Shown here: positions 6,220 through 11,597 of the stretch, one piece after another
Numbering within the stretch: the first letter of the stretch is position 1
Layout: the number at the start of each line of letters is the position of its first letter
Source: Aquimarina agarivorans
GTDB lineage: Bacteria > Bacteroidota > Bacteroidia > Flavobacteriales > Flavobacteriaceae
NCBI RefSeq assembly: GCF_000218485.1
Contig: NZ_AFPB01000174.1
Location: 62,001 to 126,000 of the forward strand
Length of the DNA: 64,000 bases
Direction: 5' to 3'
Notes under the pieces: generated by a model
What the model saw: the letters and a program-made list of their open reading frames with translations, nothing else
The model's database searches: none
What the model was told of the DNA's origin: nothing
Position numbers and translations under genes: made by a program

Positions 6220-7404
6220 TTAGCGAAATGATTCCCAGTCTTTCCAAACTACTTCAAAACCTTGGTTTTTTAGCATATCTGCAATTTCTTCGGTTGGACG
6301 TTCATCGGATATTTCAAATTGTTCCAAACTTTGGGGTTCTACCACATAGCCACCAGGATTCGTTTTAGATTCGGCACTAATAGAAGTGATTCCTAATTTA
6401 ACTACATTGTTCCTAAATACTTCACTTTCTCTGGTAGACATGGACAGTTCCACATCTTCATCCAATAAACGAAAAGCACAAATGGCTTGAACCAAATCAG
6501 GATCTGTCATTTCAACTTTAGGTTCTAATCCACCACTATGTGGACGTAACCTAGGAAAAGAAATGGAATATTTAGTTTTCCAATAGGTTTTTTGTAAATA
6601 TTGTAAATGCAATGCCGTAAAAAAACTATCAGTACGCCAATCCTCTAAACCAAATAAAGCACCTAAGCCTATTTTGTGTACGCCTGCTTTTCCAAGTCTA
6701 TCGGGGGTTTCTAGACGGTAATAAAAATTACTCTTTTTTCCTTTCGGGTGGTGTTTTTTGTATTCGTCTTTATGATAGGTTTCTTGATATACTAAAACTG
6801 CGTATAGTCCGCTATCAACTAAAGTTTCATAATCGGGCTGATCCAAAGGTTGTACCTCAATAGTAATATTACTAAAATGCTGTTGTATTAACTCAATAGC
6901 GTGTTTAATGTATGAAACTCCTACGGTTTTATTAGCCTCACCAGTAACTAGTAATATGTGGTCGTAACCTTTTAACTTTAGGAATTCAACTTCCTTTAAA
7001 ATTTCAGTATCTGTAAGTGTTCGACGTGCAATTTTATTGGTCATACTAAATCCGCAGTACGTGCAAATATTTTGACACTCGTTACTCAAATACATAGGAA
7101 CATACATTTGCATGGTATTCCCAAAACGTTTTTTGGTCAACTGACTGCTCAACTGAGCCATTTGTTCCAAATAAGGCCTTGCAGCTGGCGAAATTAAGGC
7201 CTTAAAGTCCTCAATGTCACGTTTTGAATTTGCTAATGCGCGTTCTACATCAGCGGCTGTTTTAGCGTAGATCTCACTAGTGATTTGATTCCAATTATAT
7301 TGATCGAATGTGGCTTTAAAGTTATTTGCTGTTGGCTGTTGGCTGTTAGCTTTTTTCTCTAAAGAAATCCTACTTTTTAACATGTCAATTTTTGTAAAAC
7401 TCAT
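6220..7404 (-). CDS. thiH: 2-iminoacetate synthase (tyrosine lyase), radical SAM
   Basis: A 394-residue radical SAM enzyme with C110, C114 and C117 in the CxxxCxxC cluster motif (CQNICTYC). It cleaves tyrosine to dehydroglycine (2-iminoacetate) for thiazole synthesis and works with ThiG. The YAKTAADVERAL block near residues 46-57 and SFPRLRPHSGG further on are family hallmarks. The ~28 residues before FKATFDQYNW are not typical of the family; residues 17-28 are encoded by a heptad array that also forms one arm of an inverted repeat around the downstream-listed four-helix-bundle gene. No other start codon is close, so translation appears to begin in acquired sequence. Confidence 0.9.
   Translation of the reverse strand: MSFTKIDMLKSRISLEKKANSQQPTANNFKATFDQYNWNQITSEIYAKTAADVERALANSKRDIEDFKALISPAARPYLEQMAQLSSQLTKKRFGNTMQMYVPMYLSNECQNICTYCGFSMTNKIARRTLTDTEILKEVEFLKLKGYDHILLVTGEANKTVGVSYIKHAIELIQQHFSNITIEVQPLDQPDYETLVDSGLYAVLVYQETYHKDEYKKHHPKGKKSNFYYRLETPDRLGKAGVHKIGLGALFGLEDWRTDSFFTALHLQYLQKTYWKTKYSISFPRLRPHSGGLEPKVEMTDPDLVQAICAFRLLDEDVELSMSTRESEVFRNNVVKLGITSISAESKTNPGGYVVEPQSLEQFEISDERPTEEIADMLKNQGFEVVWKDWESFR
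7321..7355 (-). repeat. Heptad array within thiH; left arm of an inverted repeat flanking the first four-helix-bundle gene
   Basis: Five 7-nt units on the plus strand: GTTATTT, GCTGTTG twice, GCTGTTA, GCTTTTT. Bases 7321-7350 match the complement of 7824-7853 at 25 of 30 positions by hand alignment. The array encodes residues 17-28 of ThiH. Confidence 0.75.
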
Positions 7405-7418
7405 ACCTGTAGAAATCT

Positions 7419-7778
7419 TTAAAAATTGCTTCTAATTTTAGATTGTAATGAATTCAACATTTTTCGTATTGAAATAAGTACTGCATCTAATTTTTCAAAC
7501 TCTTCTTTTGTGATATAATTTAAATCTTTTGAAACTTCAAGTAAATAGTTTGATTCAGCAGCTGAACCAGACGCTATATTTAGAAAATTAGCGAATTCTT
7601 TATCCGAATGTCTTCCTGCTCCTTCTGAAATATTTGTTGGAACAGAAAGCATCGCTCTTCTCAATTGAGAAGTTAGTCCGTAAACTTCTTCCTTAGGGAA
7701 TTTTTTAGTGACCCTATATACATCCAATGTTAATTTATGAGACTGTTCCCACACATTATATTTCTTATAATCTCTCAT
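7419..7778 (-). CDS. Four helix bundle protein (23S rRNA intervening sequence protein / S23 family), copy 1
   Basis: A 119-residue all-helical protein of the PF05635 type. The hallmark run is FPKEEVYGLTSQLRRA, then S-P-T-NISEGAGR, and a helix FANFLNIASGSAAE. The family was first described in proteins encoded by 23S rRNA intervening sequences and is related to the Avd accessory proteins of diversity-generating retroelements; its biochemical role is largely unknown. It lies in the thi operon between thiG and thiH on the same strand, 14 bases before the thiH start. It has no known role in thiamine synthesis. Heptad arrays on both sides form an imperfect inverted repeat. Confidence 0.85.
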   Translation of the reverse strand: MRDYKKYNVWEQSHKLTLDVYRVTKKFPKEEVYGLTSQLRRAMLSVPTNISEGAGRHSDKEFANFLNIASGSAAESNYLLEVSKDLNYITKEEFEKLDAVLISIRKMLNSLQSKIRSNF

Positions 7779-7822
7779 TTTATATTGATTGCAATGTTTA
7801 TATTTTTAAAAATTAATCCAAC

Positions 7823-7853
7823 GGCTAATAGCCAAAAGCAAACAGCTATTAAC
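7823..7853 (-). repeat. Heptad array between four-helix-bundle copy 1 and thiG; right arm of the inverted repeat
   Basis: Units GGCTAAT, AGCCAAA, AGCAAAC and AGCTATT run from 7823 to 7850, and the array overlaps the thiG stop codon at 7849-7851. It is the partner of the array at 7321-7350. Confidence 0.75.
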
Positions 7854-8613
7854 TCAAAAAACTCGTTAATGGACTACTCGCCTCGGCATGTTGCTTTACG
7901 GGAGCTAATTTAGCTTCGTAAGCCATTCTTCCTGCCTGGACAGCCATTTTAAAAGCTTTTGCCATTTCAACTGGGTTTTGCGAAACTGCGATAGCGGTAT
8001 TTACTAAAACCGCATCAGCACCCAGTTCCATAGCATATGCAGCGTGTGAAGGGGCACCAATACCAGCATCAACTACTACAGGTACATTACTCTGGTCAAT
8101 AATAATTTCTAAAAAATCCTGTGTTTTTAATCCTTTATTACTGCCAATTGGTGCTCCCAAAGGCATTACACATTGAGTGCCTACTTCCTCTAAGCGTTTA
8201 CATAACACAGGGTCGGCATGTATATAAGGCATGACTATAAAACCTAACTTAATCAATTCCTCGGCGGCTTTTAATGTTTCAATAGGATCGGGTAATAAAT
8301 ATTTAGGATCGGGATGAATTTCCAATTTTATCCAATTGGTTTCTAAAGCTTCACGAGCCATTTGCGCTGCAAAAACAGCTTCTTTAGCATCTCTAACTCC
8401 TGAAGTGTTAGGCAACAAATTAATATGCTGATGCTTCAAATGAGTTAAAATATCATCCTGTTCATTGCTAACCTCAACTCTTTTTAAAGCTACAGTAACT
8501 AATTCACTTTCCGAAGCTACTAAAGCTTCTTCCATTAAAACTGATGAACTAAATTTCCCTGTTCCTGTAAACAAGCGAGAGGTGAATTCTTTATTTGCTA
8601 TTTTTAATTTCAT
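7849..8613 (-). CDS. thiG: Thiazole synthase
   Basis: A 254-residue TIM-barrel enzyme that joins 1-deoxy-xylulose 5-phosphate, dehydroglycine and ThiS thiocarboxylate into the thiazole phosphate. Family features visible are FTGTGKF near the start, the Schiff-base lysine context [31 protein letters not shown] and [12 protein letters not shown] with AVLVNTAI near the C terminus. The length is normal. It lies between thiE and the first four-helix-bundle gene, with its stop codon in a heptad array. Confidence 0.93.
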
Positions 8614-11172: not shown

Positions 11173-11185
11173 ATAATAATTATGA

Positions 11186-11213
11186 ATTTTCAATTACGAA
11201 TTACGAATTGTCT
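11186..11213 (-). repeat. Heptad array between tenI/thiE2 and four-helix-bundle copy 3; left arm of an inverted repeat
   Basis: Units ATTTTCA, ATTACGA twice and ATTGTCT. Bases 11191-11210 pair with 11562-11581 at 18 of 20 positions. The array encodes the last codons and stop of the four-helix-bundle gene (IRNS end). Confidence 0.8.
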
Positions 11214-11547
11214 TTTGTATGCTTCCAATAATCTTTAACAGTTCTTCAACATCATTTAATAGTTCTATTTTAACCTTCTCTGAAATATAATCGGAATCAA
11301 ATAGTAAGCGTATCCAGTATTTACTTTCTCTCGCTTCTTTATAGGAAATAGACAATTTAGCATAAAAATCCTTTTTACTTTGACCTCCAATAGCCTCTTC
11401 AATATTTGCTCCAATTGAAGTTCCTGAACGCAGTAATTGTTTTGAAAGAACGAATTCTTTTTTTGATTCCATTAAAAACCGGCAATGTTTTACAATTTTA
11501 ACTGCAAAAGCATAACTTTTTTCTTGTACTACATTACCAGTTTTCAT
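11194..11547 (-). CDS. Four helix bundle protein (23S rRNA intervening sequence protein / S23 family), copy 3
   Basis: About 117 residues from the ATG at 11547; an in-frame TTG nine bases earlier falls in the repeat-rich leader. The sequence KQLLRSGTSIGANIEEAIGGQSKKDF followed by KLSISYKEARESKYWIRLL marks the second major subgroup of the PF05635 family, in which SGTSIGANIEEA replaces the S-P-NIAEG form. The three copies in this operon therefore come from at least two subfamilies, suggesting independent arrivals. It lies between thiC and tenI/thiE2, enclosed by an 18/20 inverted repeat, with its C terminus coded by that repeat. Confidence 0.87.
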   Translation of the reverse strand: MKTGNVVQEKSYAFAVKIVKHCRFLMESKKEFVLSKQLLRSGTSIGANIEEAIGGQSKKDFYAKLSISYKEARESKYWIRLLFDSDYISEKVKIELLNDVEELLKIIGSIQKTIRNS

Positions 11548-11561
11548 TAGTCTCAATTATT

Positions 11562-11597
11562 CAATTCGTAATTCCTAATTAATCATTCGTAATTAAA
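11562..11597 (-). repeat. Heptad array between four-helix-bundle copy 3 and thiC; right arm of the inverted repeat
   Basis: Units AATTCGT, AATTCCT, AATTAAT, CATTCGT and AATTAAA from 11563 to 11597, overlapping the thiC stop codon at 11593-11595. It complements the array at 11191-11210. Confidence 0.8.

Follow-up and report, generated by a model that had tools for sequence, protein, structure and literature searches.

The thiamine (thi) operon of Aquimarina agarivorans is interrupted by three genes of the PF05635 family. Since the 1990s that family has been familiar only from rRNA insertions, in which it rides as a passenger. What are such genes, each flanked by repeats, doing in a protein-coding operon? 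We analysed a window of 64,000 nucleotides (nt), positions 62,001 to 126,000 of contig NZ_AFPB01000174.1 (assembly GCF_000218485.1), together with related genomes and PF05635 genes from other phyla. Our reading, to which we give a probability of roughly 0.6, is that each of the three is a copy of a small mobile element in which two arrays of a short word converge on one PF05635 gene, its mobility being suggested by how such elements are distributed.

In the sense direction the operon, on the − strand of the window, runs thiC, IVP3, thiE2, thiD, IVP2, thiE, thiG, IVP1, thiH, thiF. A first-pass annotation of this DNA had placed three genes of the 23S rRNA intervening sequence (IVS) protein family on the operon strand, and open reading frames (ORFs) are indeed found there: IVP1 (7419..7778, −) between thiG and thiH, IVP2 (9305..9673, −) between thiD and thiE, and IVP3 (11194..11556, −) between thiC and thiE2. 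All three match PF05635 (E-values of 4.8e-40, 6e-34 and 3.8e-27, respectively) and TIGR02436. Each gene lies between two inverted arms on the same strand. Those of IVP1 are at 7823..7853 upstream and 7321..7352 downstream, the latter in coding sequence of thiH, past the start codon of that gene (7404). IVP2 has an upstream array at 9675..9756 and a downstream arm at 9278..9324 whose inner end supplies codons of the IVP2 C terminus, and the arms of IVP3 are at 11562..11595 and 11177..11210. The arm matches derived from scores and lengths (26/31, 29/31 and 29/34 for IVP1, IVP2 and IVP3) are close to the hand counts of the annotation (25/30, 22/22 and 18/20), and the arm scores exceed the maxima of 100 shuffles of the same flanks (37 versus 27, 52 versus 25 and 43 versus 31).

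What the annotation leaves unsaid is that every arm consists of imperfect tandem copies of a single short word, and that the word differs from element to element: AGCTNTT (7 nt, also read as GCTGTTG) for IVP1, AGTTAAG in alternating 7/8 steps for IVP2 and AATTACG for IVP3. IVP1 shares 39% identity with IVP2 and 27% with IVP3, which together with the three different words bears out the proposal that these are separate insertions and not local duplications. Most comparisons of the protein genes point to purifying selection. Five of them give a ratio of nonsynonymous to synonymous substitution rates (dN/dS) of 0.07–0.14, with dS saturated in two of the five. For the two closest pairs the ratio is 0.37 (7 differences) and 0 (3 differences), and one further pair is identical. 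For IVP1 the value is 0.37 against the nearest relative, modules at the IVP1 site in congeners give 0.07–0.08 when compared with each other, and for IVP2 it is 0.07–0.14.

The first-pass annotation had suggested looking for empty sites in related thi operons. The same sites are found empty, occupied and gene-less, which identifies the three genes as insertions. Among thi operons in which both neighbouring genes were found, an element is present at thiG/thiH in 13/32, at thiD/thiE in 5/29 and at thiC/thiE2 in 2/32, always in sense. Unoccupied thiG/thiH sites have a gap of 4 nt or less in 10/19 cases and of 14 to 240 nt in the others, and two of them (L086 and L087) retain what appears to be a single left-over arm. 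Sites are also reused by different modules: the relative G005, with a ThiG 98% identical, carries at thiG/thiH another module, with 54% protein identity and another word. A site between apparent fatty-acid genes holds one element in A. agarivorans, another in G005, a gene-less hairpin with the AGCTNTT word in G007, and nothing in G010. At the site of the A. agarivorans element L001, both G005 and G007 have a gene-less hairpin, with a word resembling that of the G007 element L151. Array lengths vary between close species. At thiC/thiE2 sites without the gene, a hairpin scores above 95% of shuffles in 15/30 operons; 5 of these 15 have arms of at least 14 nt and a clear 7/8 period, and with only 5/30 gene-free operons of this kind we rejected a general 7-nt hairpin at this site. 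A second gene cluster of A. agarivorans (G000:C15, which looks like fatty-acid oxidation) contains two elements, L003 and L007, 1.6 kb apart; the second of these sites seems to hold another module (L151) in G007.

Paired arms are a general feature of PF05635 genes. We scored arms as present at a score of 26 or more, with mismatched flank pairs as the control, in three samples: 98 distinct PF05635 genes of relatives, orthologous sites included; the 80 best-ranking of 571 candidates that were confirmed after scanning GTDB species contigs, two of the 80 being shared with the first sample; and 16 plasmid loci, all cyanobacterial, fetched from 26 records found. Arms are present in 67/98 genes of relatives (mismatched pairs, 4.9%), 63/80 multi-phylum genes (3.8%) and 14/16 plasmid loci (41/240, 17%, a higher rate because the words there are alike and a few loci are close relatives). 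By record title, from which the phylum labels including those of metagenome bins were taken, the 80 loci cover at least 15 phyla, and arms are present in 27/32 of those outside Bacteroidota and Balneolota. Neighbouring ORFs of the same loci reach the threshold in 11/114. The loci below it number 31/98, 17/80 and 2/16; several of the 17 have short similar repeats and some have none. The A. agarivorans genome contains seven PF05635 genes with seven different words, and 6/7 arm scores are above the shuffle maximum. The annotation had asked whether other family members in this genome have paired arms; the other four do, with one of them, L003, below its shuffle maximum (24 versus 26).

These arms have a common format: the word spans 7 or 8 nt, its units usually contain AG or GG, and a paired arm has about four of them. 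In the 67 arm-bearing loci of relatives the flanks match themselves at lags 7 and 8 with frequencies of 0.473 and 0.359, compared with 0.284 and 0.279 within the gene; harmonics appear at lags 14, 21 and 28, and the arrays are concentrated within ~200 nt on either side of the gene. Across the 128 arm-bearing loci the best lag is 7 in 84, 8 in 32 and 9 in 3, with none in 9, and the median length of paired arms is 4.4 units where the period is 7 and 4.1 where it is 8. The two arrays of an element face each other, and they have a polarity. Read in the sense of the gene, the upstream arm has AG or GG in 105/116 words and the reverse complement of these dinucleotides in 17/116; outside Bacteroidota the counts are 22/24 and 5/24. 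Stop codons, considered as a cause of this polarity, show a modest effect, with stops in all three frames in 50/128 left arms, 28 right arms and ~22 shuffled left arms. The genes are in sense to both neighbours in 97/98 and 61/74 scored cases from the first two samples, and antisense to both in 1/172. No rRNA match was found in window positions 1–20000 or in the 40 multi-phylum loci scanned of the 80.

Word and protein vary together. Among the 128 arm-bearing loci we compared arms by cosine similarity in pairs with unrelated flanks, sampling bins of more than 400 pairs. Similarity rises from 0.13 below 50% protein identity to 0.31 at 60–70% (180 pairs), 0.52 at 70–80% (30 pairs) and 0.76 above 80% (3 pairs). 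The mean for the 213 pairs of at least 60% identity, which are not independent of one another, is 0.344, whereas 2000 permutations, made inside each phylum stratum and period, reach 0.274 at most. The period is the same in 157/165 pairs of at least 60% identity (chance, 0.60), and at 40–60% identity it agrees no better than chance. One octad, GGCACAAA, is common to elements from KSB1, Nitrospirae, Desulfobacteraceae, Syntrophaceae and Elusimicrobia records. Beyond the arms, the next 60 nt remain at 0.22–0.30 up to 80% identity, with 0.44 on one side in the three pairs above 80%. Because these outer flanks stay flat while the arms rise, the conserved unit ends at the arms. On this comparative evidence the gene and its arms are a unit that travels together, and the word is probably kept by the protein. 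Fourfold degenerate sites are saturated (identity 0.34), so that a synonymous-site comparison cannot date the protein–word link, and a search for residues tied to period 7 versus 8 gave no more than weak candidates, in an effective sample of 56 of which 9 have period 8.

The arrays also occur without a gene. Within the window there are single arrays between thiE and thiG (8621..8649, IVP1 word) and between thiE2 and thiD (10546..10577, AGTACAAAGTA, the word of L001), facing arrays of the IVP1 word directly upstream of thiC (13463..13550) and a 7-nt array at the start of thiF (6133..6169), none with an assigned strand. Genome-wide, the word RGCTNTTRGCTNTTRGC has 35 matches in A. agarivorans (G000), 43 in G005 and 150 in G007 (overlapping counts), compared with 0–3 in each of 27 congeners; its reversed control occurs once in all genomes together. 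Among the matches listed, 20 chosen places comprise 9 facing pairs, as read by eye, the rest being single or unclear arrays, and the cognate gene is present in G000 and G007. For GGTNTC, places beyond the thiG/thiH element occur in 7/9 genomes with the element and 5/21 without (p 0.009, phylogeny ignored, by our own reading); some of these places may flank PF05635 genes, not all of which are listed for these genomes. For AGTATTR, with element arms included, the counts are 8/10 and 9/20 (p 0.07, phylogeny ignored). Scattered hairpins with a common end sequence are clear for one word only and weaker for the two others. A spaced sample of 0.8 Mb contains very few gene-less hairpins. One array far longer than any arm, of ~80 GGCTGTT units, is at G007:C10:40284-40846 among the matches listed.

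Two arms touch gene starts in the operon. The listed TTG start of thiE2 (11193) falls within the IVP3 arm, and thiE2 probably starts at an ATG near 11172 (−). The IVP1 arm in thiH (7321-7404, −) encodes the N-terminal stretch NSQQPTAN, and congeners have other arm-coded N termini, as read by eye.

How might such a unit work? The trp RNA-binding attenuation protein (TRAP) forms a ring that reads NAG triplets. The analogy concerns the mode of working only, in that identical subunits arranged in a ring read AG-containing units at even spacing; the protein is unrelated, its spacing is ~5 nt in contrast to the 7–8 here, and array binding by PF05635 proteins is a supposition. Relatives with a solved structure, PDB entries 2GSC and 2RLD, match the PF05635 protein and have five chains each, and PMC4990558 calls the protein of Xanthomonas a toroid of five subunits. 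A PF05635 ring may bind its own array as a single strand, one word per subunit, and with the same inward-facing word at both ends it could hold the two ends together. Host enzymes would then copy or paste the unit, or the gene-less hairpin, into intergenic gaps. Expression would come from the host operon, as the sense orientation suggests. A thiamine pyrophosphate (TPP) riboswitch lies upstream of thiC (13862-13956, −), and IVP1–3 are therefore probably under thiamine control. We rejected a reverse transcriptase or a Y1 transposase as a host requirement, because PF05635-rich genomes lack them: RVT_1 has no match in G015, G004, G006 or G025 (20, 11, 9 and 7 PF05635 genes), PF01797 (Y1) has none in G004, and the five Y1 matches of A. 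agarivorans are not linked to its PF05635 elements.

Several observations weigh against this mobile-element reading. No enzyme-like signature was recognised in the protein among the families found for it. No target duplication was recognised by eye in the junctions read, no near-identical recent copies were seen at new loci within one genome, and only three non-orthologous pairs reach 80% identity. Flank matches in direct orientation reach the threshold in 10/98 and 12/80 loci, above the mismatched rate. The similarity of the spacer between arm and gene also rises, from 0.25 to 0.44, and a limited set of families supplies the pairs, so that common descent explains part of the protein–word link. 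G005 has AGCTNTT arrays, yet none of its six elements has that word, and the AGCTNTT-carrying trio (G000, G005 and G007) is one close group. The reversed control of AGTATTR has 12 matches in four genomes, and AGTATTR itself occurs once in G016, a genome without a PF05635 gene. In the spaced sample, which covers seven congeners, arrays are infrequent, and their abundance shows no relation to how many PF05635 genes there are.

Of the other explanations, autoregulation survives best, and we regard it as unlikely. Here the modules would be domesticated, with the ring binding only the upstream AG-rich array in mRNA and controlling translation of its own and downstream genes, the downstream array acting as a competitor strand. 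The AG/GG polarity of the upstream arm, the sense orientation and the reuse of sites by different modules all fit; an occupancy of the thi sites nowhere above 13/32, protein–word units at unrelated loci across phyla and scattered gene-less hairpins of one word do not.

RNA processing, as proposed in the first-pass annotation, is quite unlikely. The arms would pair in the operon mRNA and RNase III would cut the stem, so that the gene is removed or the transcript divided. The arms are complementary, 20/20 thi insertions counted are in sense, and 23S IVSs with the same protein family are cut in such a stem (PMC4990558). The sense orientation, however, is explained as well by dependence on a host promoter. 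If pairing in the sense RNA were a constraint, G-U transitions in the arms should exceed their mirror image. We count 249 versus 297, and 72 versus 84 in strict alignments, so that an mRNA stem under selection is not supported and was rejected. Moreover, with the IVP1 distal arm behind the thiH start codon, excision of the stem-loop would remove that codon, at the cost of ThiH; in several congeners thiH begins at the PF05635 stop codon and the arm is translated, as read by eye. Unlike those of rRNA, the pieces of a cut mRNA would not be held together.

Spread solely by homologous recombination of the flanking thi genes, without transposition, is very unlikely, although such recombination may well act in addition. 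The dS of IVP1 between G000 and G007 is 0.044 (7 differences), compared with 0.377 for thiG, as for a recently exchanged tract, and the same sites are reused. This route can neither put the same protein–word unit at unrelated loci in different phyla nor scatter gene-less hairpins. Least plausible of all is that polymerase slippage, an origin that Mrazek 2007 suggested for heptamer repeats (cited in PMC4679880), made the tandem words and template switching the alike arms, with the PF05635 gene as bystander: array lengths do differ between close species, but paired arms are specific to PF05635 genes, and word and period follow the protein, a link that already contradicts this idea.

One report on a 23S IVS describes a strain-variable block ahead of the S23p ORF, made up of two or three heptamers in tandem plus a variant copy; RNase III cuts at the first of these repeats, and the terminal inverted repeats form a stem of 28 bp (PMC4990558). 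Units of one kind thus seem to occur in rRNA and in the thi operon, and 23S rRNA IVSs look like a special case of the element. They share the PF05635 protein, a gene between inverted terminal repeats and a sporadic distribution; the thi elements differ in lying between protein genes, outside rRNA, and in that RNA cutting is unsupported for them. Private words that track the protein clade are not described in those parts of the 23S IVS literature that we covered. The first-pass annotation is thus partly supported: family membership, insertion, separateness and paired arms at other family members hold, RNA processing or excision is not supported, and the kinship with 23S IVSs is closer than its author had means to see.

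Short tandemly repeated repetitive (STRR) sequences of cyanobacteria likewise consist of 7-nt tandem repeats. The same is true of heptamer repeats in Xanthomonas (GGGAATC), Nostoc (GGGGAYT) and Beggiatoaceae (TAACTGA), which are mostly intergenic. In Xanthomonas they often form convergent inverted pairs, with 70 and 75 cases reported (PMC4692102). This leads to a wider proposal, which we hold tentatively and put just short of even: PF05635 proteins may be the missing partner of bacterial heptamer repeats generally, forming a class of mobile elements with one protein apiece, each pentameric ring reading a private word of 7–8 nt and keeping and spreading its arrays both as element ends and as gene-less hairpins, which would cover STRRs, the Xanthomonas and Beggiatoaceae heptamers and 23S IVSs. 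No link of these heptamers to PF05635 was found in PMC4679880 and PMC4692102: neither main text contains the term S23, the former also lacks four-helix and 23S, and the latter lacks XCC0516. Among titles and the starts of abstracts in the open literature, and in the passages covered of the closest papers, no PF05635–heptamer link was found either; most subscription journals lie outside this scope, which stops short of proving novelty.

The mobile-element reading offers a testable function for the PF05635 family and ties it to a second open question, the origin of bacterial heptamer repeats. Natural protein–word pairs from many phyla would provide a ready-made code from which the residues that set word and period might be read.

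Among other repeat systems, REPINs (repetitive extragenic palindromic doublets forming hairpins) are scattered hairpins whose partner, the RAYT (associated tyrosine transposase), is a Y1 tyrosine transposase. The likeness lies in scattered short hairpins that match ends tied to one gene in the genome; here the partner is a PF05635 four-helix bundle and the ends are tandem arrays of 7–8 nt. Miniature inverted-repeat transposable elements (MITEs) and insertion sequences have inverted ends, and insertion sequences a transposase gene. PF05635 elements resemble them in their inverted ends, presence/absence polymorphism and gene-less derivatives, and differ in having no transposase gene and, for the seven in A. 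agarivorans, no common ends.

Avd, a protein of diversity-generating retroelements (DGRs), belongs to a related family: PF22296 gives 24.2 bits for IVP1 and 23.2 for IVP2, below the cut-off of 40, and NF033474 gives 25.8 and 26.2, against a cut-off of 80, with IVP3 not listed. In a DGR, efficient retrohoming depends on a DNA hairpin at the target (PMC3240598); the thi operon is without a reverse transcriptase. PF05635 genes have also been reported among cas genes (PMC3936711). We find PF05635 genes with inverted arms at cas6/cas4 twice, on plasmids, and at cas10/cmr3 once (L298, L300 and L301); their arms mark them as insertions and not cas genes, which accounts for such annotations.

Two further observations concern single loci. 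A PF05635 match at G024:C96:6339-6647 lies within an open frame of 445 codons and is possibly a fusion. Close to a KSB1 element, L169 contains two Acido-Lenti-1 RNA motifs (3474-3519 and 4047-4092, −).

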